A stretch of 64,000 bases of DNA from positions 2,232,001 to 2,296,000 of the forward strand of contig NZ_CP051217.1 of the NCBI RefSeq assembly GCF_012516475.1. The letters are read 5' to 3'. A program made the translations under genes and the position numbers. Below, piece after piece: positions 2,832-23,546 of the stretch (its first letter is position 1; each line of letters begins with the position of its first letter). The stretch comes from Parasphingorhabdus halotolerans. Lineage in GTDB: Bacteria; Pseudomonadota; Alphaproteobacteria; Sphingomonadales; Sphingomonadaceae. Under the pieces are notes generated by a model, which saw nothing but the letters and a program-made list of their open reading frames with translations, did not search any database and had not been told where the DNA came from.

Positions 2832-3980
2832 TTGACGCGCAAATTGGTTTTTACTGGCTTGGCCGAGCAACGTGAAAGACTCAGGTCTGAGATTGATGCT
2901 AATATTGCTGTAGTTCTTGATCATGGCCGCTTTATTATGGGGCCGGAAGTTGGTCAATTTGAACAAGAGCTGGCGCAGTTTTCGGACGTAAAGCACGCTA
3001 TTGGCGTGGCCAATGGAACTGATGCAATCCAAATTGCAATGATGGCGGCTGGGATCGGCTATGGTGATGCTGTGTTCGTACCCTCATTCACTTATACCGC
3101 AACGGCTGAGGTCATTTTGATCCTAGGTGCAATTCCGGTGTTTGTTGAAGTCGATGCATCGACGTTCAACATCGATAGCGATGATCTTGTCAAAAAAATT
3201 GCCAAAGCAACTGCTGACGGTATGAGACCAAAGGCGATAATCTCGGTAGATCTATTTGGCTTGCCGCATGATTCTGACACAATAAATAGGATCGCAAAGG
3301 AACATGCTCTCTTTCATATCTCTGATGCCGCACAGAGCTTTGGTGCGCGCGATGCGAAAGGGCGACCGGTGGGTACACTTGCGCCGATTACGACAACGAG
3401 CTTTTTCCCGGCCAAGCCGCTCGGCTGTTTTGGCGATGGCGGCGGCATTTTTACGAATGATGATGATCTGGCGGCTACCATGCGCTCAATCAGAACCCAT
3501 GGCCAGGGCAAGGCAAAATATGAAACTGTTCGCGTAGGAATGAACAGTCGACTGGATACAATCCAAGCCGCTATTTTGCTCGCGAAGATTAAAATTTTCG
3601 CTGAAGAAATCGCGAACCGTAATTCGCTTGCAGATGCATATCACGATTGCCTCAAGGACCTTGTCACTACGCCGATAAAAGCTGAGGGTGTTGTTTCTGC
3701 CTGGGCACAATATACTATCCGCGTTGACAACCGGGATGCTGTAAAAGAACGGCTGGACGGGATCGGCGTACCAACGGCGGTCTACTACCCTAAACCCATG
3801 CATTTGCAGCCTGCTTATGCAGCTTTTGGCGACGGGCTAGGTTCGCTGCCGGTTTCGGAAATGCTAAGTGAGCAAGTTATCAGCCTGCCAATGAATCCGT
3901 ATTGGATACAAGCTGATGTGGACGCGGTTTTTGATGGGTTAACGAAGGCGTTGGCCACTCCCTCAATGGCTACAAACTGA
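2832..3980 (+). CDS. wbpE: WbpE-like PLP-dependent nucleotide-sugar aminotransferase
   Basis: This DegT/DnrJ/EryC1/StrS-family enzyme of 382 residues closely resembles WbpE/WlbC. Those enzymes transfer an amino group from glutamate to C3 of a 3-keto UDP-GlcNAc uronic acid, giving UDP-GlcNAc3NA. The PLP-stacking segment DAAQSFG starts at residue 165. The Schiff-base lysine is K195 in SFFPAKPLGCFGDGG. The long VRVGMNSRLDTIQAAIL-type segment is also family-typical. The start is a TTG with AAAGGA about 9 bases upstream. The wbpA-like dehydrogenase follows after 11 bases, so the two are probably one operon. The oxidoreductase and epimerase of the same route lie at 22.5 and 19.8 kb. Confidence 0.85.
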   Translation: MTRKLVFTGLAEQRERLRSEIDANIAVVLDHGRFIMGPEVGQFEQELAQFSDVKHAIGVANGTDAIQIAMMAAGIGYGDAVFVPSFTYTATAEVILILGAIPVFVEVDASTFNIDSDDLVKKIAKATADGMRPKAIISVDLFGLPHDSDTINRIAKEHALFHISDAAQSFGARDAKGRPVGTLAPITTTSFFPAKPLGCFGDGGGIFTNDDDLAATMRSIRTHGQGKAKYETVRVGMNSRLDTIQAAILLAKIKIFAEEIANRNSLADAYHDCLKDLVTTPIKAEGVVSAWAQYTIRVDNRDAVKERLDGIGVPTAVYYPKPMHLQPAYAAFGDGLGSLPVSEMLSEQVISLPMNPYWIQADVDAVFDGLTKALATPSMATN

Positions 3981-3991
3981 GAGTATATAAA

Positions 3992-5338
3992 ATGACAAAT
4001 ATCGAATCAGTGCCTTCGGAAGCGCTTTTTCAGCGTGTTTCAGAACGGGAGAGCAAAGTTGGCATCATCGGGATGGGCTACGTTGGCCTGCCACTAGCTG
4101 TTGCCGCTTTTGACGCCGGTTTCTCAATTTTTGGTTTTGATGTTGACCCATCCAAAATTGAAAGCATTAATAATGGTGTGTCTCCGATTGGACGGATAGG
4201 CAATGCTAAGATCCAAGCAATGCGCGATGCAAAGCGTTTTGAAGTAACGTCTGAATTCAGCAATCTCGCCGAATGCGATGTAGTCATAATTTGTGTTCCT
4301 ACACCGTTGAACAAATATCGTGAGCCAGATCTTTCCTATGTAGTTGATACAACACGCAGCATTGCATCGAATTTGCGTCCCGGACAGATCATTTCGCTTG
4401 AATCGACCACTTATCCAGGAACAACTAGAGATGTTATGCGTCCGATCCTCGAGGAAGGGGGTTTGAAATCAGGTGAAGATTTTTTCCTCGCCTATTCTCC
4501 TGAGCGAGAAGATCCCGGAAACCCCGACTTCCACACTGCCTCTATTCCCAAAGTAGTTGGCGGTGACGGCCAAGCGGCAAGCCGGATAGCCGAGGCATTT
4601 TACGGCGCTGTGGTTGATATTGTCGTTCCAGTGGCGAGCTGCGAAGTTGCAGAAGCTGTAAAACTGACCGAGAATATATTCCGTTCTGTCAACATCGCGC
4701 TGGTGAACGAGCTAAAGGTTATTTACGACCGGATGGGCATAAACGTCTGGGAAGTCATTGATGCGGCAAAAACCAAGCCATTTGGCTTCATGCCATTTTA
4801 TCCCGGACCAGGGCTGGGCGGGCATTGTATCCCGATTGACCCCTTTTATCTTACTTGGAAGGCGCGAGAATATCACGTTCCGACGCGATTCATCGAACTA
4901 GCTGGCGAAATTAATACAAACGCGCCCTATTTGGTTGTTGATCAACTGATGGAATCTTTGAGCACACATAGAAAAAAATGCATGGCCGAAGCACGGATAT
5001 TGATGTTGGGCGTTGCTTATAAAAGGAATGTTGAGGATACACGCGAAAGCCCTGCGTTTTCGTTGATTGAAGAAATAGAAACTCGCGGTGGCGTCGTGGA
5101 TTTCCATGATCCATATGTCGCGGTAGTACCGCATATGCGCGAACATGAGAACATGTCTGGCCGTGAAAGTATAGACCTTACAGCAGAAAATGTCTCTGGC
5201 TACGACGCTGTTTTGGTCTGCACGGATCATGATGGAGTAGATTATAAAATGGTCGGCGATGCTGCGAAGTTGATCGTTGATACGCGGAACGTCATGGCCA
5301 AATTTGACAAAGGGGCGGCAACCGTTGTGCGTGCCTAG
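3992..5338 (+). CDS. wbpA: UDP-N-acetyl-D-glucosamine 6-dehydrogenase (WbpA-like)
   Basis: This is a 448-residue nucleotide-sugar dehydrogenase of the UDP-Glc/GDP-Man dehydrogenase family. It would oxidise UDP-GlcNAc at C6 with two NAD+ to UDP-GlcNAcA, the first step towards 2,3-diamino uronic acids. The Rossmann motif GMGYVG is at residues 27-32. The catalytic Cys is C279 in GLGGHCIPIDPFYL. Central and C-terminal nucleotide-binding domains are complete. It resembles WbpA more than the WecC copy at 34.3 kb, in agreement with its wbpE neighbour. Substrate is inferred from context; UDP-ManNAc is the main alternative. Confidence 0.85.
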   Translation: MTNIESVPSEALFQRVSERESKVGIIGMGYVGLPLAVAAFDAGFSIFGFDVDPSKIESINNGVSPIGRIGNAKIQAMRDAKRFEVTSEFSNLAECDVVIICVPTPLNKYREPDLSYVVDTTRSIASNLRPGQIISLESTTYPGTTRDVMRPILEEGGLKSGEDFFLAYSPEREDPGNPDFHTASIPKVVGGDGQAASRIAEAFYGAVVDIVVPVASCEVAEAVKLTENIFRSVNIALVNELKVIYDRMGINVWEVIDAAKTKPFGFMPFYPGPGLGGHCIPIDPFYLTWKAREYHVPTRFIELAGEINTNAPYLVVDQLMESLSTHRKKCMAEARILMLGVAYKRNVEDTRESPAFSLIEEIETRGGVVDFHDPYVAVVPHMREHENMSGRESIDLTAENVSGYDAVLVCTDHDGVDYKMVGDAAKLIVDTRNVMAKFDKGAATVVRA

Positions 5339-5404
5339 CGTTTGACCTGAGGGCTGTTTGCGGCGAATATCTGCTCTGTCGATCGAGTTGAGATATGCTT
5401 TAAT

Positions 5405-5419
5405 TCCATTTCAAATGGA
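5405..5419. promoter_or_regulatory. 15-bp palindrome upstream of wzx (possible operator)
   Basis: TCCATTTCAAATGGA is a perfect 7+1+7 inverted repeat in the 161-bp gap between the wbpA-like gene and wzx. Its position would suit a regulator site for the wzx-wzy-acyltransferase genes. No regulator gene lies nearby, and no clear -35/-10 pair was identified around it. Confidence 0.2.
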
Positions 5420-5499
5420 GACCAGCCGACTGTTTGAATATAAATTAGTCACAAGGATATGCTGCGCGTGCAATTTCTTGACATTTCCATGCCGGGATA

Positions 5500-6885
5500 G
5501 TGATTAAACAGTTTCGTCTATGGCTCTCGCAGGCGAGAGAAAATGAGATTGCGCGATCGATCTCAATTCTGGTCGGCGGGGCCGCATCAGCGCATGCCAT
5601 TACCGCACTCGCACTTCCTGTATTATCGAGACTTTATACACCGGAAGATTTTAGTACGCTGGCTGTTTTTAATAGTTTATTCGCCATTCTGACGGTTGCT
5701 GCTTGTTTGCGCTTTGATATAGCCATTCCTCTGCCCGAAGAGGAAGATGACGCTGCGAATTTGCTTGTGCTGGCACTGTGCATTGCCGGCCTCGTCAGCC
5801 TTTGCCTGAGCGTCGTTATCATGTTCTACACCGATGAGATCGCGGATATAATGGGGCGTCCCGCAGTTGCGCCATATTTATGGTTTATTCCATTCGGAGT
5901 ATTCTTTTCTGCAGGCGCAAGTGCGTTGCAAAATTTATATGTTCGTAAAAAAGCGTTCGGGATGATTTCAAAAAGCCGGATCATCCAATCCGGTAGCGCA
6001 GTATCTATGCAATTTGGCATTGCATCAATTATGGCTGGACCCACTGGCTTACTTGTCGGATCGATGTTCAACGTCGGGTCTTCGTTTTTCGTTTTGGGTC
6101 AGAATATGGTCCGTAAGAAAACAATAAGACTTTCGGTAATTTCGAAAGTCCGCATTCGCAAACTATTATCTCGATATCGAAACTTTCCCAAATATTCGGC
6201 GGCGGAGTCGTTGTGCAACTCGGCCTCGTTATTTATCCCGATTATAATGATATCAGCCTTGGCCGTTGGGCCTGAACCCGGATATATCCTCCTTGCAATT
6301 TCTGTACTGCAGGCACCAATGGCATTGTTCGGAATAGCCGTAGGGCAAGTGTATTTATCTCGTGCTCCCGATGAACACAGAAAGCATAACCTTGCTCAGT
6401 TCAGCGTAGACACGATTAATTTGCTAACCCGGTCTGGGGTCGGGCCGCTTTTGGCAGCAGGCATGGTGTCACCCTTTCTGTTCGGCATTATATTTGGAGA
6501 GGGTTGGGAACGCGCGGGCGTTATCGTTGCCTGGATGACGCCTTGGTTCATAATACAGTTTCTGACATCGCCAATTTCTATGGCGCTCGCCGTTACCGAT
6601 AATCAGGCGCGCGCGTTGATGTTGCAGATATTTGGTCTGTTTGTGCGCACCGGTTCTGTCTTTCTGGCTTGGAAGATTGATGTGACCTATATCTCTGAGG
6701 CATACGCAGCCTCTGGTTTTGTGAGTTATTTTGTTTACTATATTGTTGTGATGAAAACGATAAACGCGCCGGTCCACGCACTCCTATCTGGAATTGTCGC
6801 CAATATTAAAATTATTTTGGCGTGGGCTGCGCTCGCGATCATGGTAATAGCAACGATGCGTCTATTGATTGGCGGTGCGTTTTGA
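5500..6885 (+). CDS. wzx: Polysaccharide repeat-unit flippase (Wzx-like)
   Basis: This 461-residue, highly hydrophobic protein has about a dozen predicted transmembrane helices. The N-terminal segment (ARSISILVGGAASAHAITAL, then LSRLYTPEDFSTLAVF) is typical of Wzx/MVF-superfamily O-antigen flippases. It would turn undecaprenyl-diphosphate-linked repeat units from the cytoplasmic to the periplasmic face of the inner membrane. The GTG start has only a weak GGGA ribosome site. The Wzy-like polymerase follows 13 bases later, the usual partner. Which lipid-linked oligosaccharide it accepts cannot be read from the sequence. Confidence 0.8.
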   Translation: MIKQFRLWLSQARENEIARSISILVGGAASAHAITALALPVLSRLYTPEDFSTLAVFNSLFAILTVAACLRFDIAIPLPEEEDDAANLLVLALCIAGLVSLCLSVVIMFYTDEIADIMGRPAVAPYLWFIPFGVFFSAGASALQNLYVRKKAFGMISKSRIIQSGSAVSMQFGIASIMAGPTGLLVGSMFNVGSSFFVLGQNMVRKKTIRLSVISKVRIRKLLSRYRNFPKYSAAESLCNSASLFIPIIMISALAVGPEPGYILLAISVLQAPMALFGIAVGQVYLSRAPDEHRKHNLAQFSVDTINLLTRSGVGPLLAAGMVSPFLFGIIFGEGWERAGVIVAWMTPWFIIQFLTSPISMALAVTDNQARALMLQIFGLFVRTGSVFLAWKIDVTYISEAYAASGFVSYFVYYIVVMKTINAPVHALLSGIVANIKIILAWAALAIMVIATMRLLIGGAF

Positions 6886-10069: not shown

Positions 10070-10339
10070 AGGCATCAGGCCCGACCAGTTGAATTTCGAT
10101 TTTGAAATTTAACAAATCGTTTTGAAATTAGATTCACAGCCTATTCTACTAAGGACTATGGACGGTAATGTTAAGGGGTACAATTTTCTCTAACCGTAGA
10201 AGTCGTATAACCATCTTCTACAAATCTGTGTGGATCGGTCTGTGGCGTGCCGAGCAACAAATGGGTTTTGCCACATCTGCACGTCAACAAAACTGCGGGT
10301 CAAATCCACACTCAGAAACACCCGGAAAACTCTCCCGTT

Positions 10340-11002
10340 TTAGCAGTATTTCGTTTTGTAGGCGTCAAAGGCCAGCAACATTTCCTGTTCAACCGTAATC
10401 GGCATCCGTTTTGTTGGATTACCAACTTCGAATTCCTCCACGGTGGCGCTTTTTATGACTGTATCGAAATTTCCGAGCATCCAAATTTCACTTTCATAGT
10501 GACGGACGGCAAAAGACTGCAACGTATCGCCAGAATAAATTGGCGTGCGAGAATGAGCGAGGACTACGCCTGCATCTGCGTACTCATCCAATTGATGCAA
10601 TGTATTCCCAATCGGCGATTGATTCAAAATAGCCCATTTGAACGAGTCCAAGCCACGCACAGCAGGAATCAAACCAGAGTGACAATTCAGGATTTTTCCC
10701 GAGTTGGCAAATTCGCGTTCGATGAGATTGGAACCGCAGACTATGAATTGGTCATATTGGTCTAGCACCTGTTGCCAGTTATCATAGTCATGAACCACAC
10801 GATCATAGGCGGCAGCTAATGTTCTTGGCGCAACTCCGACAAATTGTTCAGGCCTATGCTGAAACGCGACTTCTCGACCTGGACGCTCGATAAACGGCAT
10901 AAGCAGGAAATCTACATCCAGCATTTCTCTATTCTTAAGAACGTGAAAAACTTGAGACGTTTTTAGATGGGGCGCATCATAGGTTAAAATACAAATTTTC
11001 AC
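10340..11002 (-). CDS. Sugar N-formyltransferase (10-formyl-THF dependent)
   Basis: With the GTG start the protein has 220 residues. It shows the formyltransferase fold seen in methionyl-tRNA and sugar formyltransferases: the Asn-His pair N106/H108 in LNCHSGLIP, a following RG-x-WAILN segment, and the catalytic Asp D143 in EYADAGVVL. These enzymes move a formyl group from N10-formyl-tetrahydrofolate to an amino group. The GTG (11002) overlaps the stop of the ankyrin gene (GTGA) and has GGAGG 6 bases upstream, so it is preferred over the in-frame TTG at 11023. It is the last gene of the operon. The substrate is probably the 3-amino group of a UDP-diamino uronic acid, an inference from the absence of any WbpD-type acetyltransferase. 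Confidence 0.75.
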   Translation of the reverse strand: MKICILTYDAPHLKTSQVFHVLKNREMLDVDFLLMPFIERPGREVAFQHRPEQFVGVAPRTLAAAYDRVVHDYDNWQQVLDQYDQFIVCGSNLIEREFANSGKILNCHSGLIPAVRGLDSFKWAILNQSPIGNTLHQLDEYADAGVVLAHSRTPIYSGDTLQSFAVRHYESEIWMLGNFDTVIKSATVEEFEVGNPTKRMPITVEQEMLLAFDAYKTKYC

Positions 11003-11394
11003 TTTATACCTCCATTTGAACAAATAAATTTATGGACCTTCTCGGTCGCATTCTCGACGTATTCCAGAATTGTCAGCCCCGCATCATCACGGGCGTTGAT
11101 ATCGGCACCATGTTCTAGCACCAGCTTCATAATGTTCGTGTTACCACTGCCTAGCGCTGATGATTTTGCGTACATAAAGACCGTCGTACCATTTTGGTTT
11201 TTAGCATTTGCGTCAGCCCCGCGTTTCAACAGAAGGTTGCATAACTCAATATTACCAAGCCAGCATGCCACCATGAGCGGCGTGCGTTGTCTATCATCAC
11301 GACAGTTCGGTGAGAGACCCGTCGCCAGCAGCTCATCTACCAAGCTGGTTTTGCCCAATAGGCATGCATCGAAAATCTGGCGTTTATCGATCAT
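10999..11394 (-). CDS. Small ankyrin-repeat protein
   Basis: This 131-residue protein is made almost wholly of ankyrin repeats. Repeat units run at about residues 4-36, 37-67 (TPLMVACWLGNIELCNLLLKRGAD is the clearest), 69-104 and a short C-terminal one. There is no signal peptide or membrane segment. Its ATG overlaps the stop of the preceding glycosyltransferase (ATGA) and its TGA overlaps the GTG of the formyltransferase, so all three are translationally coupled. In the QdtF formyltransferase of Providencia alcalifaciens an ankyrin domain fused to the enzyme binds the sugar nucleotide. Here it may serve the same role as a separate chain, which is inference. A general scaffold role is the alternative. 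Confidence 0.8.
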   Translation of the reverse strand: MIDKRQIFDACLLGKTSLVDELLATGLSPNCRDDRQRTPLMVACWLGNIELCNLLLKRGADANAKNQNGTTVFMYAKSSALGSGNTNIMKLVLEHGADINARDDAGLTILEYVENATEKVHKFICSNGGIK

Positions 11395-12626
11395 TTTTCT
11401 ACGGCCTTGAGGCTAAATAAGTCACGTTCAATTCGATCAATGATTTTTTTCCGGTCGAAAACTTTATTTGAATATTCCTTGCTGGCTTTACCCATCGCGC
11501 GCAGTTCGGACTGTTCCATTGACATCATTGTCCGAATCGTAGCCGCCAATTCTGATGCATTGCTTGCTGGGACACTTATCCCCGCTCCGGAACTCTTAAT
11601 TACTTTTGCCCCTTCGCCGTCCAGCATAGCAATAATCGGTTTCCCCGCAGCGAGATAAGATTGTATCTTTCCGGGGATCGTACTTGCGAAAATTGGTTCT
11701 GCTTTTAGGGATACCAACATCACATCTGCGTGTTTGTAGAAGGAGGGCATGGTTTCGACCGGATGTCTTCCCAACATGATAATATTTGTCAGGCCTCGCC
11801 GATTGATTTCTTCTGCCACCCAATCGGAAACACGCCCGTCGCCTACAATGAGCCATCGCAATTGTGGTACATCCTTAAGCTGCTCAGCAGCTTCCAAAAT
11901 GGCCGGAAAATCCTGTGCTTCACCAACGGCTCCTGCGAACATTATGTCGAAGCTTTTTGGCACAGCCGTCACCTCGGGGCTAGGCTCCACCGAATTTAGT
12001 TCGGGTATGTCCTCCGACCAATTAGGTAAAAACTCTAGCTCTACGGGTTTCTTCGTGTGTTCCAGCACGTTGGGAATAAAGCCTTCTGACTGAACATAAA
12101 GCTTGTCCGTGCGGTGATAAACAAAACCCACAAGACGTCCGACCATGTTTAACAGTCGAGAAGATTTGATAATACCTAGGGCCTTTAATGTGTCTGGCCA
12201 TAAATCCAGTACCCACATTGCAAACTTGCGCTTGCGCACCTGCCGAATTAGCACCGCCGGCAGCATGGCCGTGATGGGAGAAAGTTGGGGCGAAAAAATA
12301 ACATCAAATTTGACGCGGCGAATTTTCCAGACTCCAATTGTACATCCTGAGATCGCAAAACTGGCGTAGTTTAAGAGCAGGCGTAGGCTTCCTTTGCCGC
12401 GTGAAATCAACGGAACCCGAATAACTTTTGCGCCCGCGTAAGACGAAAAAGCAGCGGGATCGTCGCGATAATCCTGGAAAATCTTTCCGGCAGGGTAGTT
12501 TGGTTGTCCCGTCAACACGGTCACTTCGTGTCCGCGGTTGACCAGTTCTGAAACCAGATCATTTATGCGGAAAGTCTCCGGCCAAAAATATTGCGTCACG
12601 ACCAAAACGTGCAGAGTTTTGGACAT
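11391..12626 (-). CDS. Family 4-type glycosyltransferase (WbjE-like)
   Basis: The 411-residue enzyme is of the GT-B fold. It opens with LVVTQYFWPETFRINDLV, typical of WbjE/CapM/WbuB glycosyltransferases that usually sit directly after the capEFG genes and are thought to transfer L-FucNAc. The UDP-binding half contains FAGAVGEAQDFPAILEA. The ATG at 12626 is preferred because it fits the family N terminus and lies just after the capG stop. An in-frame start at 12662 inside capG would add 12 residues. It acts on the cytoplasmic face of the inner membrane. Acceptor and linkage are unknown. Confidence 0.8.
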   Translation of the reverse strand: MSKTLHVLVVTQYFWPETFRINDLVSELVNRGHEVTVLTGQPNYPAGKIFQDYRDDPAAFSSYAGAKVIRVPLISRGKGSLRLLLNYASFAISGCTIGVWKIRRVKFDVIFSPQLSPITAMLPAVLIRQVRKRKFAMWVLDLWPDTLKALGIIKSSRLLNMVGRLVGFVYHRTDKLYVQSEGFIPNVLEHTKKPVELEFLPNWSEDIPELNSVEPSPEVTAVPKSFDIMFAGAVGEAQDFPAILEAAEQLKDVPQLRWLIVGDGRVSDWVAEEINRRGLTNIIMLGRHPVETMPSFYKHADVMLVSLKAEPIFASTIPGKIQSYLAAGKPIIAMLDGEGAKVIKSSGAGISVPASNASELAATIRTMMSMEQSELRAMGKASKEYSNKVFDRKKIIDRIERDLFSLKAVEK

Positions 12627-12630
12627 TATA

Positions 12631-13767
12631 TTAGCTTTTTTTCCACACCACTCGGTTAACATAACCCGTGTAGCTATGGATTATCCGGACCACTTTCTCT
12701 GAAACGTTCGGCATGGAGTAATCACCGACTAACCTGAGATCGCGATTTTTGCCACGCGCCTGAGACGTCAGGATCGAAAGACACTGACTGACACGCTTCG
12801 GATCCAAGCCTGTCATCATTACAGCTGCTTCTTCCATTCCCTCTGGCCGTTCATGGGCTTCCCGGATATTGAGGGCTGGAAAATTCAGGATCGAGCTTTC
12901 TTCCGTTATTGTACCGCTATCGGAAAGGACCGCGCGGGCGCTTTGCTGAAGCTTGATATAGTCAAAGAAACCCATAGGTTTTAACAGTTGGATTTTAGGA
13001 TGAAATTCGACGCCCTGTCTGTCAATATGCGCACGAGTGCGCGGATGGGTCGATACAATGACAGGCAGATCATAATCGGACGCAATCCCGTTCAAAATTT
13101 CCACAAGTTGGTTAAAGCTCTTTTCGGGTTCGATGTTCTCTTCGCGATGTGCACTAACCAGAAAATACTGACCTTCCGTCAAATCAAGCCGAGTTAAAAC
13201 ATCTGAACTTTCAATCTGCGGGAGATAATGATGGATTATCTCATACATCGGGCTGCCGGTCTTTATCACCTGATCAGGCGGCACGCCCTCTCGAAGCAGG
13301 TACTCACGCGCTATACTGCTATAAGTGAGATTTATATCTGCGACATGATCGACAATTCGGCGGTTTGTCTCTTCAGGCACTCGCTGATCAAAACATCTAT
13401 TACCCGCTTCCATATGGAAAATTGGAATTTTCCGGCGCTTGGCTGGAATTACTGATAGGCAGCTATTGGTATCGCCAAGCACCAACAAGGCATCTGGCTC
13501 TACTTCCGCTAACGCACTATCAACCGCAATAATAAGGTTGCCAATAGTTTCTGCAGCATTCGCGCTTCCCACGGCACAATCCAAAAAATAATCCGGTTTG
13601 CGAACACCAAGATCATCAAAAAAAACTTGATTCAGTTCGTAATCATGGTTTTGCCCAGTATGAATTAGGACGTGTTCACAATGAGCGTCCAAAGCGGCTA
13701 ATACCCTTGATAATCGAATAATCTCGGGTCTAGTCCCGATAACAGTGGCTACCTTCAATTTTGTCAT
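12631..13767 (-). CDS. capG: UDP-N-acetyl-L-fucosamine synthase / C2 epimerase (CapG/WbjD/FnlC)
   Basis: The 378-residue protein is of the non-hydrolysing UDP-GlcNAc 2-epimerase fold ([11 protein letters not shown] near the N terminus, [19 protein letters not shown] in the C-terminal half). In the CapEFG route it makes the last change, C2 epimerisation of UDP-L-PneNAc to UDP-L-FucNAc. Its ATG overlaps the capF stop by ATGA. Order and overlap with capE and capF, more than sequence alone, separate it from the WecB copy at 33.1 kb and the WbpI copy at 19.8 kb. Confidence 0.85.
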
Positions 13768-14876
13768 GAATTGACTTTCATAGCGATCGTATCTGGCCGG
13801 TCTCTATCAAACACCTCGTTCGCCCACAACATTACGATCATCTCGTCGTCACCAATGTTAGTAATGTCATGCGTCCAGCCCGGCACTGTTTCAACGACTT
13901 GAGCTTTTTTACCGCTAGTGACAATATTGTGTGTCTCATTGGTTTCAATATGGCGAAAGCCAAAATTTGCTTTTCCTTTAAGAACAAGAAATTTTTCGGT
14001 TTTCGAATGATGATAATGTTCTCCCCGGGTGATCCCGGGGTGCGCCGTAAAATAGGAAAACTGTCCACAATCTGGGGTCTTAAGCATCTCCGAAAAAGTA
14101 CCTCTGGGATCGCCATGCATCGGCAAATCATAAGCAAATTGCTTTGGCGTAAACACGGATACGTAAGTGGAATATAATGCGCGAACAAGCCCTTCGCCAA
14201 CGGGGGGAGTAACGAGTGATGTTCGGCTTTCGCGGAAGCTTCTAATAATATCAGCGACCTCACCGACCGTCGTATCATATTCCGGTGTCACATCAAAAAA
14301 ACCGCTCGGTCGGGTATTCTCATTGAGTAAACCAATTAAGCTTGCGATCACATCATCAATATATACCAACTTCAAAGGTGCGTCGGGATTATTGACCGTG
14401 ATTGGCAGGTCGTTAGCGATATTATGACAAAATGTTGCCACGGCCGAATTGTAGTTCGGGCGGCTCCATTTACCAAACACGTTGGTAAGGCGAGATATCA
14501 TCACCGCAGCACCGGTTGTCTCGCCATGTTTAATCAATACATCTTCCGCCGTTTTTTTGCTGCCACCATATTCATTGTCGATCGCAGCTTGCGTGGATGA
14601 TGAAAACACAATCGCTGCTTTGGGAGCAACCCGTACCAATGAATCGCATATCAGCCCAGTAAACCCTACATTACCCTCGATAAATTCCGCCGGATCCTTT
14701 GGTCGATTCACGCCTGAAAGATGGAACACCATATCTACGTCAGTTAATGCGCTATCCAATTCCGCGCTTGTCAGTTGATGACTGATCTGACGGATGTCAT
14801 CATAACCAAGTTCAGTTAAGCGCACACGCAGGTTTCGAGCGATGAAACCTTTTGCTCCCGTGATTGCGACCTGCAT
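13764..14876 (-). CDS. capF: UDP-2-acetamido-2,6-dideoxy-L-talose reductase (CapF/WbjC/FnlB)
   Basis: The 370-residue protein matches the usual length of CapF. It has two domains: an N-terminal extended SDR reductase ([16 protein letters not shown]) and a C-terminal cupin with the zinc-binding run [18 protein letters not shown] at about residues 280-297. In CapF the cupin catalyses C3 epimerisation and the SDR domain reduces the 4-keto group with NADPH. Start and the preceding capE stop share one base (TGATG). It is the second of three enzymes giving UDP-L-FucNAc. Confidence 0.9.
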
Positions 14877-15913
14877 CAGTTCATGTCCTTATCAAAGGCC
14901 GTTTTTTCGTTCGCAATCTTTCGAATGAAGGGCAGCTTCAACAATAATTCTTGCATGCCATCGACATCAAGCCTGCTAGTATTATGTGAGTTATAGTCTT
15001 CCGAACTCGTGATGGTTGTTTCGCCTTCGTTGAAATATTTATCATAATTCAAATCTCGAGAATCCGCCGATACTCTAAAATAGTCGCCCAGTTCTTCTGC
15101 TGCAGCGCGCTCTTCCCGGCTAAGCAGAACTTCATATAGTTTCTCACCATGACGAGTACCGATTTCCTGCACCTCGTGATCAGGTTTTTTCATAATGTTC
15201 AAAATTGCCTTGATCAATACCGCGACCGTCGCTGCTGGTGCCTTTTGAACAAAAATATCACCATTCTTGCCATGCTCGAACGCGTAAAGCACTAGTTCAA
15301 CGGCATCATCCAATGTCATCATGAATCTGGTCATTTCCGGATCAGTAACGGTTATTGGCTTGCCAGCGGCAATTTGTTCAACAAATAACGGGATTACAGA
15401 TCCGCGAGATGCCATGACATTCCCGTAGCGCGTCCCGCAAATGATCGTTTTGTCATTTGCGTTTCGGGATGCGGCAACCATGACCTTTTCCATCATGGCC
15501 TTTGATATCCCCATTGCATTGATCGGGTAAACGGCTTTGTCAGTGCTCAGACATATTACCCGTTTGACTTTTGCTGCAACGGCGGCATTGATCACATTTT
15601 CCGTACCAAGCACGTTGGTCCTGACCGCTTCCATCGGATAAAACTCACAAGATGGCACTTGTTTCAAAGCCGCTGCGTGAAAAACATAATCTACGCCGTT
15701 CATTACACCGGCAACACTACCTGGATCACGAACATCGCCGATATAAAATTTGAGCTTAGGATGACTATACAGCTTGCGCATATCATCCTGCTTTTTCTCA
15801 TCGCGGCTGAAAACTCTTATTTCCTTCAAGTCGCTGTCTAGAAAGCGTCTGAGCACTGCATTGCCGAAGGAACCGGTGCCGCCGGTAATCAAAAGGGTGC
15901 GGTCTTTAAACAT
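14876..15913 (-). CDS. capE: UDP-GlcNAc 4,6-dehydratase/5-epimerase, inverting (CapE/WbjB/FnlA)
   Basis: This is a 345-residue extended SDR protein with the NAD(P)-binding motif GGTGSFG at residues 11-17. The active-site segment NAMGISKAMMEK has Met in place of the usual Tyr of YxxxK, as in CapE and FlaA1. It starts the L-FucNAc route by dehydrating UDP-GlcNAc and inverting C5. Its ATG overlaps the end of the hisF-like gene by 8 bases, tying the amidination genes to the L-FucNAc genes in one transcript. PseB-type activity is the main alternative but is unlikely beside capF and capG. Confidence 0.9.
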   Translation of the reverse strand: MFKDRTLLITGGTGSFGNAVLRRFLDSDLKEIRVFSRDEKKQDDMRKLYSHPKLKFYIGDVRDPGSVAGVMNGVDYVFHAAALKQVPSCEFYPMEAVRTNVLGTENVINAAVAAKVKRVICLSTDKAVYPINAMGISKAMMEKVMVAASRNANDKTIICGTRYGNVMASRGSVIPLFVEQIAAGKPITVTDPEMTRFMMTLDDAVELVLYAFEHGKNGDIFVQKAPAATVAVLIKAILNIMKKPDHEVQEIGTRHGEKLYEVLLSREERAAAEELGDYFRVSADSRDLNYDKYFNEGETTITSSEDYNSHNTSRLDVDGMQELLLKLPFIRKIANEKTAFDKDMN

Positions 15914-16673
15914 TGATCAACGAAGCTTTCTGTTGCTGGCTTGGATAGGTGATGAGAACGGCCTTATAGGGCCCTTTGAAAACGAAAAAACTTCCAGCGG
16001 ATGCGCCCACAATGCCGCACGCCTCAAACAACGCCGCCATATGATCGAGCGATCCTGCTCCACCCAAAATGGTGATGGGAATATCTACCGAATCGCGCAA
16101 CTTCGCTGCCAAAGAGAGATCATATCCTGCCATTTGACCATCATTGTCGATGGAATTGAAAATTATCTCACCCGCGCCCAATTGCGCGACCTCTTTTGCA
16201 AATGTAATAGGTTCCTTTTTCGCACCGCGCGTTCCGTTGTGGGTGTAAACCTCATATCCACGACCAAAAGATTTCTTATGTGTATCAATAACGACGACGA
16301 CACTTTGACGGCCAATTTGGGCGGCGACCTCGGAAATTAGCGACGGGTCTTCTACGGCGGCAGAGCTGACCGCAACTTTTTCAACGCCCAGCGAGACTAT
16401 CCGGCTTGCTTGTTCCGCTGTTTTCACACCGCCGCCATAGCATAAAGGCATACGGCTTTCATTGGCCAGATTGCGGATCATATCATAATCTGGTTCAGAC
16501 CCATTAACGGTTGCGTCAATGTCTAAGACAACAAGCTCGTCAGCTTCTTTCTCGTTGAAAATCTTTACAGCGTTAATGGGGTCGCCCACATATTTTGGTG
16601 TGGAAAAGCCGACTGTTTTCACCAAGCCACCTTTGTGAACGAGTAGGCATGGCGTAATCCTAGGTCTCAACAC
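15906..16673 (-). CDS. hisF: HisF-like cyclase subunit of the sugar amidination system
   Basis: This is a 255-residue TIM-barrel protein of the HisF family, starting VLRPRITPCLLVHKGGLVKTV. The GTG at 16673 fits that N terminus and has GGAG upstream. An upstream in-frame ATG at 16739 would lie inside hisH. No other histidine gene is nearby, while a WbpG-type amidotransferase and HisH are directly upstream. The expected role is to channel ammonia released by HisH to WbpG, so that an N-acetyl sugar becomes an acetamidino sugar. This matches HisF2 of Pseudomonas aeruginosa and WbuZ of Escherichia coli O145. Confidence 0.85.
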   Translation of the reverse strand: MLRPRITPCLLVHKGGLVKTVGFSTPKYVGDPINAVKIFNEKEADELVVLDIDATVNGSEPDYDMIRNLANESRMPLCYGGGVKTAEQASRIVSLGVEKVAVSSAAVEDPSLISEVAAQIGRQSVVVVIDTHKKSFGRGYEVYTHNGTRGAKKEPITFAKEVAQLGAGEIIFNSIDNDGQMAGYDLSLAAKLRDSVDIPITILGGAGSLDHMAALFEACGIVGASAGSFFVFKGPYKAVLITYPSQQQKASLINV

Positions 16674-17290
16674 CCGCCAATCTCCGCAAAATTTTTGAGC
16701 AACTGGGCGCCCCAGCGATGACTTTTCTCGGGGTGACATTGGACACCATAAACGTTTTTCAAATTGACCATAGCTGTGAAATTAAAACCGTAATTCACAG
16801 TCGCTAGGGCGGTATCTGACGTCGCGGATTCGAAATAGTAACTATGCAGAAAATAAAATCGAGCGTCAGATTCCAAGTTTCGCATCAATGGTGAAGCTTT
16901 TGTCGCATGGACGTCGTTCCAGCCCATATGCGGCAGCGGATCATTTCCAAAATCAGGGTTCGTTTTCAGGTTGCGGACTTGGCCTGGTACCCATCCAAGG
17001 CCCTGCAAATCTCCCTCATCGCTTCCATTGGCGAGCAATTGCATTCCTACACAAATACCGAGAACAGGAACCTCGCGCTTTACAACGAGCTCTTCAAGCA
17101 TTGGCCTAAAACCAGATTCAGCAAGCATTTTTACTGCGTGGTCAAAAGCACCGACACCGGGTAATATTATACCTTTGGCATTTTCCAGTTCCTCAGCCGA
17201 GGAAACAACACAAGCCTCTATCCCAAGTCTTTTGTAGACATTGGCAAACGCCTGAACATTGCCTAGCCCATAGTCAACAATGCTGATCAT
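16667..17290 (-). CDS. hisH: HisH-like glutamine amidotransferase of the sugar amidination system
   Basis: This is a 207-residue class I glutamine amidotransferase. The nucleophile is C80 in LGICVGMQ, and H186 and E188 in QCHPEKSH complete the triad. It hydrolyses glutamine and passes ammonia to its HisF partner, whose gene overlaps its 3' end by 7 bases. Its ATG overlaps the wbpG stop (ATGA). The wbpG-hisH-hisF order is the conserved acetamidino module, so a role in histidine synthesis is unlikely. Confidence 0.85.
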   Translation of the reverse strand: MISIVDYGLGNVQAFANVYKRLGIEACVVSSAEELENAKGIILPGVGAFDHAVKMLAESGFRPMLEELVVKREVPVLGICVGMQLLANGSDEGDLQGLGWVPGQVRNLKTNPDFGNDPLPHMGWNDVHATKASPLMRNLESDARFYFLHSYYFESATSDTALATVNYGFNFTAMVNLKNVYGVQCHPEKSHRWGAQLLKNFAEIGGC

Positions 17291-18429
17291 CTAAACAGCC
17301 GCTTTTCAAGGCCCATAGCTTGCATTGCATCGGCCCCAAGTTTTATCATCCAGCGTTTGTTTTTATATTCCCGATATGTCTTGTTGGGCCCATCAAAAAT
17401 ATCTTGTAGCTCTTTTGATGTGATCCCGAGTTTGCTCGCAACATAATCAAATTCTTCCTTCAGAAAATGACCATCTAATTCAGGCGCAGATATCCGCTTC
17501 AGCGCGGCATCCCGTGTCATTTCACCGGTCATAATTAGGCTTGAAAAATGCGCGCGGCGCTTCTCATATCCGAATTTTTTTGGCAACCAATAGTCTTCAT
17601 AAAATCGGGTAAATCGCGATTCATGGTGCTTATGCTGAAATGGTTTCCAACCGTATTCCTTTGCAAGAGTAGTTTCAGCTTCCGCCTTTGTATATTTTAT
17701 CAAGTCGAGCGGTTTGTACACCTTCATGCCTAAAATATATCGGTAGTAGAGTTTATAACGCATGATATCGATTAGTTGCAGATTATTGAGCTTCTTACGG
17801 CCGAACTTTTTCATAATATCCTGAAAAAGCAGTTTATCAATTCCAGGATAACCGCCCCATTCCTCGGGCTCACGGCAACATTCGGTTTGGTGGTTTGCAC
17901 CAGTCACAATGTGTTTTACGCCGTATTTGCGAGCAAATTTGTACAAACCAGAGAAAAAGGATGCATCCTGAGGCAGGTCCTGATCGGGAATTTGTGCTTT
18001 GAAAAATGCAAGTTGCAAATCCTTCATTTCTCCCCAATCTACCACATCAGTATAAAGATCTGCACCCAGGCCATCCACCAATTTTTCGATGTTGCCTACC
18101 GCTTGATCAGTATTCCAGCCAGCATCGACATGGACCAGAAGCGGACGTAGCTTCATTACTTTGGTTACAATATGGGCAACATAACTGCTGTCCAAGCCAC
18201 CAGACAAGCCGATAATACAGTCAAAGTCCTTACCTTTACCTGCCGTTCGAATTTCGTCTGTTACCTTATCCAGCTTTACAGAATTTGCTTTGTCTGCATT
18301 CCATGCGGGTTGCATGACCTCATCAAAATTTACGCAATAGTCGCAGCGTCCTGCACCATCGAAGATAATATTGGGATCACTAGTATCCATTATACAGCGT
18401 GTGCAAATTTGGTATTCGCGATCAGCCAT
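17287..18429 (-). CDS. wbpG: N-acetyl sugar amidotransferase (WbpG/LfnA/WbuX family)
   Basis: The 380-residue protein is of the PP-loop ATPase superfamily. Two CxxC pairs near the N terminus (C9/C12 and C29/C32) look like a metal site, and the PP-loop SGGLDSS spans 76-82. The family replaces the acetamido oxygen of an N-acetyl sugar with nitrogen in an ATP-dependent step. LfnA and WbuX act on L-FucNAc to give L-FucNAm; WbpG acts on ManNAc3NAcA. Both potential substrates are predicted in this island. The ATG at 18429 is chosen because AAGGA lies about 10 bases upstream; a TTG at 18450 is less likely. Confidence 0.85.
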   Translation of the reverse strand: MADREYQICTRCIMDTSDPNIIFDGAGRCDYCVNFDEVMQPAWNADKANSVKLDKVTDEIRTAGKGKDFDCIIGLSGGLDSSYVAHIVTKVMKLRPLLVHVDAGWNTDQAVGNIEKLVDGLGADLYTDVVDWGEMKDLQLAFFKAQIPDQDLPQDASFFSGLYKFARKYGVKHIVTGANHQTECCREPEEWGGYPGIDKLLFQDIMKKFGRKKLNNLQLIDIMRYKLYYRYILGMKVYKPLDLIKYTKAEAETTLAKEYGWKPFQHKHHESRFTRFYEDYWLPKKFGYEKRRAHFSSLIMTGEMTRDAALKRISAPELDGHFLKEEFDYVASKLGITSKELQDIFDGPNKTYREYKNKRWMIKLGADAMQAMGLEKRLFR

Positions 18430-18457
18430 TGTCGCGGAGTCCTTTTTCAATTCTAAG

Positions 18458-19792
18458 TCAATTTTTTGTAGGAAAAACCATGCTTTTCATCAATTCCATA
18501 TACTGATCCGCGGCGAACTTGCGAGATAAATTATTCGCGATCAGAGAGGGTTTGGAAGGTCCAGGCGATAGAAAGCCATCCGACAGTAGAAATTCTTCAA
18601 AATGATTCGGGTCTGTCGAAATTACATGGCTAGCATCTGCTTTTGCAACCAATCCACCAGCGAGAGTTTGCTTGTCGATATCGGCCACGATTCGGCGGCC
18701 CGAGGCTATATACTCAAATAACTTTGTAGTCAGTATTCCTTGCGCACTTAGATTATGTTTCGATGACGTTTCACAAAACAAAAGATAGTCCGCCGTCAAC
18801 ATAAGGCCCAATGCCTGTCGATATGGTATGTTGGAGTTGAAATGGAACAGCTCGGCGATATCCGGATATTCGGCGTCCAAAGTTTTACGCATTATGTCGC
18901 CGGGACCATAATATTCAAAGCGAAGCCGTTCCAGCAGTTCTGGTTTCGCGCGCACAGCTTTTGTCAGTGCTGCCAGTAAATTATGCGGCACTCGGCCCGG
19001 TGACACCAGCCCCATATAGCGCAGGACTATAGGATCTTGCGCGCTCTTCGCCTGCCAAATATTATCTAAAGCGACTTGCTCGATAACCTCGTGGTCGTAC
19101 CCGTTCATAATAACAGAAGTCTTAGGATTGAAATTCCGATAATATTCAGCCATCGGCCCGGAAATAGCCACCACAGCATCAGCGCGGCGGACAAGAAATT
19201 TATCGACGACCTTCTCGACAAATTTGGCAAAACGACCGCCGGGCATTTCATGGCAATCACTGAACGGATCGCGGTAATCCATAATGCATAGCGGACCGAA
19301 GCGCTTCGAAACGATCAGCGAGGCCAAAACCAACGGCCACGGCGGGCAAGAACCCACTACAACATCCGATTCTCGCAGAGCCTGCTTCACTTCCGGTGCT
19401 AAAAAAGGACTGCCAAACCCCAGCGCAAACGGCAATCTTGGGTCGGGCAACTGGCCGAAAAGGTCCATTACTATGGCTTTTAATCTGCGGCTGAACGAGG
19501 GCTTGTCACTATACATGTCCTCGAATTGCCTTTTGCCTTGTTCGGACGGGCTAATCCTACCTAGCCGGTCAAGTTCAAAAACAGCTACGCCTTTGGGCGT
19601 CTCTTCGGTAAACTCGCCATCCGATCCGGATTTACTAGTGGTGCAGACAGTCACTGTATGCCCCGCGCGCGCGAAGAATTTGGTCATGGCTTCAAAACGT
19701 TTGGCGCCCGAACTGTTTATTGGCGGATAGTAATGAACGAGTATTGCTATTTTGAGATGGATTGGATTCAATTCAGCCACGATTGCCCTCAC
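18458..19792 (-). CDS. Glycosyltransferase (GT-B fold, family 4-like)
   Basis: The 444-residue protein has the N-terminal run IAILVHYYPPINSSGAKRF common in family 4 glycosyltransferases, and a C-terminal donor site region (TTKLFEYIASGRRIVAD). It would add one sugar to the lipid-linked repeat unit at the inner membrane. The GTG at 19792 lies 20 bases inside the wbpI-like gene. Internal starts near the conserved KIAILVHYYPP segment are possible. Donor and acceptor cannot be assigned; its place between wbpI and wbpG suggests the diamino uronic acid. Confidence 0.8.
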   Translation of the reverse strand: MRAIVAELNPIHLKIAILVHYYPPINSSGAKRFEAMTKFFARAGHTVTVCTTSKSGSDGEFTEETPKGVAVFELDRLGRISPSEQGKRQFEDMYSDKPSFSRRLKAIVMDLFGQLPDPRLPFALGFGSPFLAPEVKQALRESDVVVGSCPPWPLVLASLIVSKRFGPLCIMDYRDPFSDCHEMPGGRFAKFVEKVVDKFLVRRADAVVAISGPMAEYYRNFNPKTSVIMNGYDHEVIEQVALDNIWQAKSAQDPIVLRYMGLVSPGRVPHNLLAALTKAVRAKPELLERLRFEYYGPGDIMRKTLDAEYPDIAELFHFNSNIPYRQALGLMLTADYLLFCETSSKHNLSAQGILTTKLFEYIASGRRIVADIDKQTLAGGLVAKADASHVISTDPNHFEEFLLSDGFLSPGPSKPSLIANNLSRKFAADQYMELMKSMVFPTKN

Positions 19793-20849
19793 CCACTAAG
19801 CGTTGGGTTATCTGATTGGAAGCATCTCCTGCGCCATATACTTCTGTAATTTGTTCGATTGAACGAGCGTTGTTCATGGATTGGGCAATAAGAGCAGCAT
19901 CAGCGCCAGCTAATATGTTCACACCAAGGTCAACTAATTCGGTCCACTCCGTTTCATCTCGAAAAGTGACGCAGGGAACCTTTTGGAAATAAGCTTCCTT
20001 TTGTATCCCGCCGCTGTCTGTGCCGATAACACCGGCGTAACGCTGAAGCGTTATCATATCTAGGTATCCAACAGGCTCTATTATGCTAATGTTGCTTGGC
20101 AGAGTTGCATCGGTCTTTTTCAGGATCATCTTTGTGCGCGGATGTAGAGGCAAAACAATTCTCAAGTCAACTTGACCTAAACCATCGATAATCGCCTTGA
20201 GGCGATCGCTATTGTCGGTATTCTCTTTTCTGTGAAGCGTGCAAAGTGCATATCCGCCTGTATCAAGAGACAAGCGCTCCATCACTTTTGACTTTGCTTC
20301 AGCAATTGGGTTAAACAACCGGATCGCATCGTACATCACGTCACCGACATTTTGGACCATCTCGCCCTTGATGCCTTCCGTTGCAAGGTGGGTCATCGCG
20401 ATCTCTGATGGCGCGAATAAAATAGAGGAAATATGATCGGTAAGTATCCGATTGATTTCTTCCGGCATAGCCCGGTTGAACGAACGTAACCCAGCCTCGA
20501 CATGAGCTACTTTAACCCCTAATTTCGCAGCCGCTAAAGACCCCGCGAGGGTAGAGTCCGTATCTCCGAAAACAAGGACAAAGTCAGGTTTTTCATCGAG
20601 AATTTTTTGCTCAATTCCTTCCATCATTTTGCCGGTATTGCTTGCATGAGACATACCACCGACACCTAAGTTGTATTTAGGATGAGGAATGCCCAACTCA
20701 TCGAAAAATATGGTGGACATATTATCATCAAAATGCTGGCCAGTGTGCACAATGACTTCGGAGAGTTCCGGGGTCTCGTTAATAGCCCGGCTGACGACGG
20801 CAGCCTTAACAAACTGTGGCCGTGCTCCAACAACGGTTAGAATTTTCAT
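19773..20849 (-). CDS. wbpI: UDP-GlcNAc3NAcA-type 2-epimerase (WbpI-like)
   Basis: This is a 358-residue non-hydrolysing 2-epimerase. Features shared with WbpI rather than WecB include VVGARPQFVKAAVVSRAI at the N terminus, VIVHTGQHFDDNMSTIFF, and FGDTDSTLAGSLAAAK. WbpI converts UDP-GlcNAc3NAcA to UDP-ManNAc3NAcA. It fits with the wbpA-, wbpE- and oxidoreductase-like genes in this island. It is the first gene of the 11-gene minus-strand operon. Only about 55 bases separate its ATG from an IS element oriented the same way, so the native promoter may have been displaced. Confidence 0.8.
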   Translation of the reverse strand: MKILTVVGARPQFVKAAVVSRAINETPELSEVIVHTGQHFDDNMSTIFFDELGIPHPKYNLGVGGMSHASNTGKMMEGIEQKILDEKPDFVLVFGDTDSTLAGSLAAAKLGVKVAHVEAGLRSFNRAMPEEINRILTDHISSILFAPSEIAMTHLATEGIKGEMVQNVGDVMYDAIRLFNPIAEAKSKVMERLSLDTGGYALCTLHRKENTDNSDRLKAIIDGLGQVDLRIVLPLHPRTKMILKKTDATLPSNISIIEPVGYLDMITLQRYAGVIGTDSGGIQKEAYFQKVPCVTFRDETEWTELVDLGVNILAGADAALIAQSMNNARSIEQITEVYGAGDASNQITQRLVGEGNRG

Positions 20850-20973: not shown

Positions 20974-21399
20974 TCATTTGAGCCACCAGATGACGGTAGC
21001 CGCTATGGCGATGGTGGCCATGAAGTTTTTGATATTTCGGTCGAAGCGTGTGGCAACCCTACGCCAGTCTTTGAAGCGGCAGAACATGCGTTCAATGACG
21101 TTGCGCTGTCTGTAGATGGCAGGATCACAGTCGAGCTTGACCTTGCGGTGACGCTTGGGCGGGATGACCGCCATAGTGCCTCTTGATGCCAGCCAGGCTC
21201 TGAGTTCATCGCTGTCATAGCCTTTATCGCCAACCAGTTCAGCAGATGGCGGCATGGCCGCAATGCACTGTTTGGCAACCCGCATATCGTGTGCGTTGCC
21301 GGGTGTCAGCAGCAGGACAAGGGGCCTGCCTTTCACATCGCAGATAGCGTGGAGTTTGGTGTTCCGACCCCCGCGCGTTTGGCCGATACCATTGGCCAA
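20974..21399 (-). CDS. IS5-family transposase, frame B
   Basis: This is the C-terminal half of the transposase. It carries the second Asp (LVGDKGYDSDELR) and the Glu (VIERMFCRFKDWRR) of the catalytic triad. Its own apparent start lies just downstream of the A4G6 slippery run in frame A, so the natural product is probably the frameshift fusion. It ends about 65 bases inside the putative left end of the element. Confidence 0.85.
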   Translation of the reverse strand: MANGIGQTRGGRNTKLHAICDVKGRPLVLLLTPGNAHDMRVAKQCIAAMPPSAELVGDKGYDSDELRAWLASRGTMAVIPPKRHRKVKLDCDPAIYRQRNVIERMFCRFKDWRRVATRFDRNIKNFMATIAIAATVIWWLK

Positions 21400-21731
21400 G
21401 GCCCCCCTTTTGCGCCTCCGGCTGTCCGGTGGACCTTGATGCAGCTACTGTCGATAAACAGCCGGTCAGGTGCATCTTCGGCCCCAGCCAATGCGCTGAA
21501 GATGTCTTCCCATATCCCGCGCTCGGCCCAGCGCACAAAGCGGTTGTAGAGCGTCTTCTTTGGACCATAGACCGGCGGGCAATCACCCCAGCGACCACCG
21601 CTTTGCAGCGCATGGACAATCCCTGAGAGCACCCGGCGATCATCCACCCGCCTTGCGCCCTTGCCGTTCACTGGCAACAATGGCGCAATCCGTGCCCACT
21701 GCTCATCCGAAAACCAAAAGAAATCCGCCAT
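21333..21731 (-). CDS. IS5-family transposase, frame A
   Basis: This is the N-terminal half of the transposase, beginning MADFFWFSDEQWARIAPLLP; an in-frame ATG at 21737 would add two residues. The first catalytic Asp is in LFIDSSCIKVHRTAGG. A run of A4G6 on the coding strand (plus-strand CCCCCCTTTT beginning at about 21402) allows slippage into frame B. It is related to, but not the same as, the element at 1.8-2.6 kb. Confidence 0.85.
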   Translation of the reverse strand: MADFFWFSDEQWARIAPLLPVNGKGARRVDDRRVLSGIVHALQSGGRWGDCPPVYGPKKTLYNRFVRWAERGIWEDIFSALAGAEDAPDRLFIDSSCIKVHRTAGGAKGGPWPMVSAKRAGVGTPNSTLSAM

Positions 21732-21943
21732 ATCCAATGCCTCCTCGATGAAAGCATTGAATCACATTCACGCCGCCTTGGGAATCCCCTTATTGGGTCC
21801 GGACCCTAGTAGATTGGTTTTCGACCAATGTAGTTCCGTGTCGGCAATTGTGATCCTTGCACTTACTCTTCCGTATCGTTAAACCCCAAAATATTTATCG
21901 ATATCTCCAAAAGGTAAGGATGTTTAATGGTTAGGATCACAGC

Positions 21944-22541: not shown

Positions 22542-23546
22542 TTACTCCTCCGCTATAAAATCTTCAGACTTGACCCATTTATTGTCGTTCTCCAGCGAAG
22601 ACTCGGCGCATTGTAACACCGCCAGAACACGTGTGGCTTCCGCAGCGTCCGTCCGCGGGCTTTTGGACTCGGCAAGGCAATCAATGAAGTGTTGCATTTC
22701 CATTTTCAAAGGCTCCGCCTGCGGGACGTCAACCATGTCTGCCGCACCTTTCACAGCCTTGGGGCGTCCATCAACATATGTGACTTCATTTCGATATATG
22801 GTCAGTTTTTCTTCCCACGGCATCGTATCCGAAAATACTGCCATTGCCTTGTCGCCAACCACGACCAATTTTTGTTCTTTTTGCGGGCTAAGCCATGAAG
22901 ACGTTATATCTGCGCGCAATCCATTTTTCCAAACCAGGTGGATTGTTCCGTTATCAGCTATCTTTTGTGGTAATACGAGAGTTCCTATTGCGCTAACTCG
23001 CTCTGGTATCGTTCCTGCGATTCCTAACACCATGGAAATATCATGTGGTGAGAAGCTCCAAATAACATTTTCTTCGGTTCGGATCATTCCCATGCTCAGT
23101 CGGCTGGAGGCCATATATTTAATATCGCCCAATTCGCCTGCTTCGCTCAGCTCCTTTAAGCGAAGGTAGACGGGATGATATTGGAGTAAATGCCCCACCA
23201 TCAATACCTCACCGGTATCGCTGGATATTTCACGCAATCTTTCTCCTTCTTTAGTTGAGAGTGCAATCGGCTTTTCAACAAAGACGCCTTTGCCGGCGAG
23301 CATTGCACGCTCTGCAATTGCAAAATGCGTTGGAGCAGGCGTGGCAATAGCGATGCCGTCTATTGACGGATCGTCAATCGCATCCGCAAGATCTGTTGAA
23401 CAGCGGACGCCTAAACTCTTTGCCAACTCGGCAGCATTTGGTGAGGGATCAACAATCAATACCAACGCACCCAATTCATGTAAATTTCGAGCGAGATTTT
23501 TGCCCCAGCCACCACAGCCAATCAAAGCAATTTTTCTATTTGTCAT
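22542..23546 (-). CDS. Gfo/Idh/MocA-family sugar-nucleotide oxidoreductase (WbpB-type role)
   Basis: The 334-residue protein has an N-terminal Rossmann domain (ALIGCGGWGKNLARNL), the FVEKPIAL segment typical of the family, and a C-terminal alpha/beta domain. In diamino-uronate pathways such an enzyme (WbpB/WlbA) oxidises the 3-hydroxyl of UDP-GlcNAcA to give the keto substrate for WbpE. It is not closely similar to WbpB itself, so the role is inferred from the other pathway genes. Its ATG overlaps the stop of the exported TPR-like gene (ATGA), placing it at the end of the wza-wzc transcript. Confidence 0.75.
   Translation of the reverse strand: MTNRKIALIGCGGWGKNLARNLHELGALVLIVDPSPNAAELAKSLGVRCSTDLADAIDDPSIDGIAIATPAPTHFAIAERAMLAGKGVFVEKPIALSTKEGERLREISSDTGEVLMVGHLLQYHPVYLRLKELSEAGELGDIKYMASSRLSMGMIRTEENVIWSFSPHDISMVLGIAGTIPERVSAIGTLVLPQKIADNGTIHLVWKNGLRADITSSWLSPQKEQKLVVVGDKAMAVFSDTMPWEEKLTIYRNEVTYVDGRPKAVKGAADMVDVPQAEPLKMEMQHFIDCLAESKSPRTDAAEATRVLAVLQCAESSLENDNKWVKSEDFIAEE

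Follow-up and report, generated by a model that had tools for sequence, protein, structure and literature searches.

In a window of 64,000 nucleotides from Parasphingorhabdus halotolerans (contig NZ_CP051217.1, positions 2,232,001 to 2,296,000; positions below count from the first letter of this whole stretch), we found that an operon in a polysaccharide cluster ends with two overlapping genes, one for a free-standing ankyrin-repeat protein (ANK) and one for a sugar N-formyltransferase-like protein (FT), and that this pair recurs at five further distinct sites among 85 loci collected for FT. The initial annotation had made its proposal about the pair depend on co-occurrence in other genomes, and such co-occurrence was indeed found. 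Because the pair recurs at these sites, we regard a separate partner subunit as the best reading of ANK. In the mechanism that we favour on balance, the WbpA-, WbpB- and WbpE-like enzymes of the cluster would make UDP-2-acetamido-3-amino-2,3-dideoxy-glucuronic acid (UDP-GlcNAc3NA). We infer that FT would N-formylate the 3-amino group of this UDP-sugar acid, replacing the missing N-acetyltransferase WbpD, and that ANK, encoded separately, would bind FT in a complex, probably bind the sugar nucleotide too, and tune FT activity in trans, in the manner of the fused ankyrin domain of QdtF and FdtF.

The coordinates and reading frames first described for the two genes, including the 131-residue length of ANK and the overlap of its stop codon with the GTG start of FT, were confirmed (Table 1). 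A stop codon separates ANK and FT, which are two genes and not one chain. The program's list of open reading frames (ORFs) puts the FT start at a TTG seven codons before this GTG; we took the GTG as the start because the sequence GGAGGT, resembling a ribosome-binding site, precedes it and because relatives begin there too. The translational coupling first noted for the pair proved ordinary: nine of the ten junctions of the operon, from WecB to FT, overlap with the starts as listed (eight of ten with the second ATG as the glycosyltransferase start). The GTGA overlap alone is therefore weak evidence that shows only operon packing, and we dropped it as a main argument. On the forward strand, a 172-residue ORF (10247-10765) lies over FT; it is antisense and was not counted as a gene.

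When modelled alone, FT adopted a confident formyltransferase fold (predicted local distance difference test score, pLDDT, 95.8), the fold expected of a member of PF00551. Residues N106, H108 and D143 were invariant across 30 aligned FT rows, window included, and we take them to be the Asn-His-Asp catalytic triad of PF00551 formyltransferases, which the initial annotation had reported as intact. The FT family also has its own N-terminal H..KT motif. FT matched PurN, PseJ, WlaRD and WbkC in sequence over the catalytic part, and PurN, WlaRD and WbkC in fold, with low identity to the solved formyltransferases (14-22% in the structurally compared rows); we know of no ankyrin partner for any of these four enzymes.

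A formyltransferase fold together with an ankyrin element is found in QdtF of Providencia alcalifaciens (PDB 4xcz/4xd1), FdtF of Salmonella enterica O60 (5uij-5uin) and the sugar N-formyltransferase of Pantoea ananatis. Unlike in QdtF and FdtF, the ankyrin part here is a separate protein and not part of the same chain, and FT probably acts on a UDP-sugar acid. FT, with 220 residues, is about half the length of the QdtF and FdtF chains in the structures (397-398 residues) and is 14% identical to them over 189-195 structurally aligned residues (195 for QdtF). The idea that FT is the split part of a QdtF-like enzyme was thus not borne out: FT is a distinct formyltransferase subfamily of 220 residues. 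Likewise, a joint search with ANK and FT, of the kind suggested for finding fusions of the two, gave none among the best 120 of 245 matches. The PDB titles name a W305A variant for both QdtF and FdtF; W305 reportedly lies in the ankyrin domain, whose pocket is said to bind a second dTDP-sugar and to affect activity. Some ankyrin proteins have glycan-binding pockets according to PMC7828330, which cites the work on the enzyme of Pantoea ananatis.

The 85 FT loci comprised 78 from genome contigs and seven from viral contigs (915,331 bases in total), among which L092 was counted though no FT ORF was found there, and several loci end close to FT (e.g. L029, L083, L086), so that an ANK past the contig end would be missed. 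Besides the window, seven of the 85 loci had an ankyrin ORF that either overlaps FT or lies within 82 nucleotides (nt) of it, and these seven represent five distinct sites: Nitrobacter (L016), one contig of a Rhizobiaceae metagenome-assembled genome (MAG; L017, L018 and L021), Hoeflea (L019), Hyphomicrobiales (L022) and Maricaulis (L025). A generic ankyrin query across all bases of the 85 loci found no other full ankyrin ORF. The gene order, described at first as the reverse of the domain order in QdtF, is so in part: ANK comes first in the window, L022 (ATGA overlap), L017 (FT frame right after the ANK stop, with no ATG, GTG or TTG for FT there) and L025 (82-nt gap), and FT comes first in L016 and L019 (14-nt overlap). 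Since Pfam Ank_2 rows numbered 1 to 5 per genome in the five linked genomes and two in the genome of P. halotolerans itself, the rough chance of six such ankyrin neighbours is about 3e-9, assuming 950 genes per Mb, independence and the counted ankyrin genes per genome; shared descent makes this figure too small.

Some of these sites had further peculiarities. The three copies in the Rhizobiaceae MAG contig (around 5464-6687 in L017, L018 and L021) lie in long stretches that are 99.9-100% identical, and a second FT occurs twice on the same contig (L110, L111). In Nitrobacter, no relative of the other cluster genes of the window was present in 12.7 kb around the FT-ANK pair (L016, 5998-6979). 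In L022, a WbpB-like ORF (4627-5721) adjoining ANK and FT ends in an in-frame partial ankyrin repeat by the family profile, either a decayed duplication of the ankyrin gene or a real tail.

By their sequences, the linked ANKs are one coherent family. With leave-one-out profiles, the best domains of seven ANKs scored 114-147 bits and those of unlinked ankyrins at most 90; the seven included P0165, whose genomic context is not known and which is 49% identical to ANK, and P0165 was also excluded from the profile for the window ANK. The background was composed of the ORFs of 19 loci (L116-L134), which gave the best ANK matches in 385 genomes of the class once the own genome is set aside, and the genomes of these 19 loci had no FT match in the class search. 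A model including the linked sequences matched 95 of the 385 class genomes at E 1e-14, with a maximum of 91.4 bits except in the own genome (198.1). C44, T70, M74, K77 and Y112 were kept in eight aligned proteins of the ANK family (P0166 included), and the third repeat of ANK has four extra residues in comparison with designed ankyrins, which come first in PDB sequence searches with ANK. These conserved residues presumably lie outside the usual ankyrin consensus, and they would be in keeping with a conserved surface for binding.

A quick tree built from 80 FT rows, from which L018, L021, L101, L105, L106 and L108-L111 were left out as repeats of sites or second FT copies in one genome (eight fragment or weak rows were also listed for removal), placed the window FT in a supported clade of eight (Shimodaira-Hasegawa-like approximate likelihood ratio test, 99), five of them linked to ANK, with L025 outside this clade. 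ANK linkage required four changes on the tree, three of them forced by supported branches, and judged from this tree ANK has probably undergone more than one gain or loss. At E up to 0.001, FT relatives numbered 356 proteins, own included. In searches of related genomes, nothing exceeded 33.6 bits outside the own genome in 98 relatives (own genome included), only the own genome matched at E 1e-30 among 298 genomes of the family, and four of 385 class genomes, own included, matched at 1e-20. FT matches were present in three of 394 genomes in the family of G100 and in two of 391 in the family of the Nitrobacter genome (G098); one locus of the latter search (L142) falls inside the stretch of genome G1528 that L056 covers and was taken as the same, already scanned site. 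No new ANK pair came from the loci of the class, family and G100-family searches. Plasmids gave one weak FT match (27%), and the seven FT loci from IMG/VR viral contigs had no ANK.

In the known Wbp route, a WbpA, WbpB and WbpE-like set makes UDP-GlcNAc3NA, which WbpD then acetylates (PMC10622841); FT is predicted to act at the same point as WbpD, acylating the 3-amino group ahead of 2-epimerisation. Unlike WbpD, FT would transfer a formyl and not an acetyl group. WbpD is a hexapeptide protein, not a formyltransferase. The names WbpA, WbpB and WbpE in the window rest on context and general models. The WbpA-, WbpB-, WbpE- and WbpI-like genes match their families, with only general models (TIGR03026, TIGR00236 and Pfam) over cutoff and the WbpB-like and aminotransferase genes below the equivalog cutoffs. 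No WbpD was found in the own genome, where the sole match to the hexapeptide part of the fusion protein P0132 had 27.8 bits and lay in a 455-residue frame. Similarly, genomes G099, G100, G102 and G104 encode a WbpB-like protein at 43-51% identity and have no match above 39.4 bits to the hexapeptide side of P0132. Moreover, FT is flanked by WbpB-like and aminotransferase genes in L022, L026, L032, L047 and L079. This gene content makes UDP-GlcNAc3NA the probable substrate of FT, which would then stand in for WbpD. In some FT relatives a formyltransferase and a WbpD-like protein coexist or are fused, and one chain with an FT and a hexapeptide (WbpD-like) part was seen in L049 (6001-7170), P0132, P0151 and P0153, perhaps a two-acyl enzyme.

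ANK and FT close an eleven-gene run on the reverse strand (20849 to 10340), the last three genes of which are the glycosyltransferase, ANK and FT (Table 1). The base composition of the cluster (46.5% G+C, against 53.2% at 33-64 kb of the window) and the IS5-type transposases around it indicate that the cluster was probably acquired. Genes for an amidino modification are also part of the operon, which suggests that the sugar of FT, or another sugar of the repeat, is further amidinated. WbuX-type amidotransferase genes are also present in the FT loci L058, L062 and L050 (Helicobacter and an Oscillospiraceae genome), just as in the window, and the two modifications, formylation and amidination, may be associated.

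Table 1. Features of the ANK-FT pair and its surroundings in the window.
Feature	Position	Strand	Basis or remark
FT, sugar N-formyltransferase-like protein	10340..11002	-	220 residues, GTG start, N106/H108/D143; PF00551 39.7 bits (gathering cutoff 26.1); final gene of operon
ANK, free-standing ankyrin-repeat protein	10999..11394	-	131 residues; Pfam Ank_2 91.1 bits (cutoff 27.3); member of the FT-linked family
GTGA overlap, ANK stop TGA and FT start GTG	10999..11002	-	sequence
GGAGGT, ribosome-binding-site-like, within the end of the ANK coding region	11008..11013	-	five bases before the FT GTG; read from sequence
Glycosyltransferase (group 1), same operon	11391..12662	-	PF13692/PF00534; stop overlaps ANK start as ATGA
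UDP-N-acetylglucosamine 2-epimerase family protein, WbcJ-type reductase, FnlA/PseB-like dehydratase (UDP-L-FucNAc-type route)	12631..15913	-	TIGR00236 223.8 bits (cutoff 210.15), NF047837 556.9 (cutoff 500), FnlA 596.6 (below cutoff 730)
AglZ/HisF2-type, HisH2-type and WbuX N-acetyl sugar amidotransferase genes (amidino modification)	15906..18450	-	NF038364 368.8 bits (cutoff 310), TIGR03573 270.6 (cutoff 203.2), Pfam GATase
UDP-N-acetylglucosamine 2-epimerase family protein with a possible WbpI role, at the head of the operon	19773..20849	-	TIGR00236 296.1 bits (cutoff 210.15)
DegT-family aminotransferase, WbpE-like by context	2832..3980	+	PF01041 337.3 bits; no NCBIfam model over cutoff
Nucleotide-sugar 6-dehydrogenase, WbpA-like by context	3992..5338	+	TIGR03026 414.5 bits (cutoff 189.8)
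Gfo/Idh oxidoreductase, WbpB-like	22542..23546	-	PF01408; best NCBIfam description UDP-N-acetylglucosamine 3-dehydrogenase, 127.1 bits (below cutoff 450)
IS5-type transposase genes	542-1282, 29687-30745		around cluster
Split transposase-like ORFs	1813-2558, 20974-21737		named by eye; around or inside polysaccharide cluster

Several observations weigh against ANK as a tuning partner of an FT that replaces WbpD. No ANK was present at 78 of the 85 FT loci (some of which end close to FT), nor beside three of the eight FTs in the clade of the window FT (L020, L023 and L107), and the Ank_2 proteins in the genomes of L020 and L023, the two that were searched, reached only 41-49 bits with the linked-family profile. 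Given these loci and clade rows, the FT family does not require ANK, and FT also exists on its own. P0166, whose genomic context is not known, scored 95, and some multi-repeat background proteins reached whole-protein sums (at most 156 bits) that exceed those of several linked ANKs, so that the separation of the ANK family rests on best-domain scores only. A model of the ANK-FT read-through of L017 had a predicted template modelling score (pTM) of 0.67, with block means of pLDDT 60-79 in the ankyrin part, and so lent no support to an interface; as ANK rows misplaced by MAFFT were omitted, this model is a poor test and speaks neither for nor against a complex. Further, Nitrobacter has a WbpD-like protein (59% identity) and only a 35% match to the WbpB-like protein, and a WbpD-like protein lies within 12 of the 85 FT loci (E below 1e-40); therefore FT does not always replace WbpD. 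These WbpD-like proteins also favour an alternative in which the pair is functional and the FT substrate is an amino sugar other than UDP-GlcNAc3NA, as do the joining of FT and hexapeptide parts in the L049 ORF and in three of the best 120 of 245 joint-search proteins, and the UDP-L-FucNAc-type and amidino-transfer genes of the window. However, the own genome has WbpA-, WbpB- and WbpE-like enzymes and no WbpD match, and FT stands between WbpB-like and aminotransferase genes in the five loci named above, and we consider another substrate rather unlikely.

The role of ANK can also be read differently. Ankyrin repeats mostly bind proteins, and ANK might be a scaffold or assembly factor that uses ordinary protein-protein contacts to bind both FT and a second enzyme of the pathway, such as the WbpB-like dehydrogenase, and no sugar nucleotide; the pair has WbpB-like genes close by in L019, L022 and L025, and the partial ankyrin repeat of the L022 WbpB-like ORF, beside ANK and FT, would agree with such an assembly. 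Yet this tail may be only a decayed duplication, and the L016 locus holds no relative of the other genes of the route, which makes a scaffold unlikely in our view. That ANK only stabilises or chaperones FT, a chain shorter than many known sugar N-formyltransferases (220 residues against the 397-398 of QdtF and FdtF), seems improbable, since most FT loci are without ANK and FT alone was modelled with high confidence. We give the same low credence to a co-transferred gene pair of no common function. The base composition, the transposase genes around the cluster, the lack of an FT match at E 1e-30 in 297 of 298 family genomes and the location of the G099 pair within repeats common to three loci all point to transfer, but the pair persists despite changing order, spacing (4-nt overlap, 14-nt overlap, 82-nt gap) and neighbours.

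To our knowledge, ankyrin repeats bind a small molecule in very few enzymes, and there they are fused. In the open-licence literature, by titles and the beginnings of abstracts, we found no separate ankyrin partner of a sugar formyltransferase; the main structural papers of the field lie outside this coverage. We propose only tentatively that ANK is a detachable sugar-nucleotide-sensing subunit, which would switch or tune an FT subfamily acting at WbpD's step and so lead to 3-formamido uronic acids in surface polysaccharides. If this is true, the fused form of QdtF and the form with a separate subunit would be two recruitments of ankyrin repeats to one control task. Moreover, the pair offers a natural two-gene version, in both orders, in which the ankyrin part can be added or removed in vitro to ask what its role is. 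The FT assignment, if right, fills the missing acylation step in genomes with WbpA-, WbpB- and WbpE-like enzymes that lack WbpD, and predicts a 3-formamido uronic acid.
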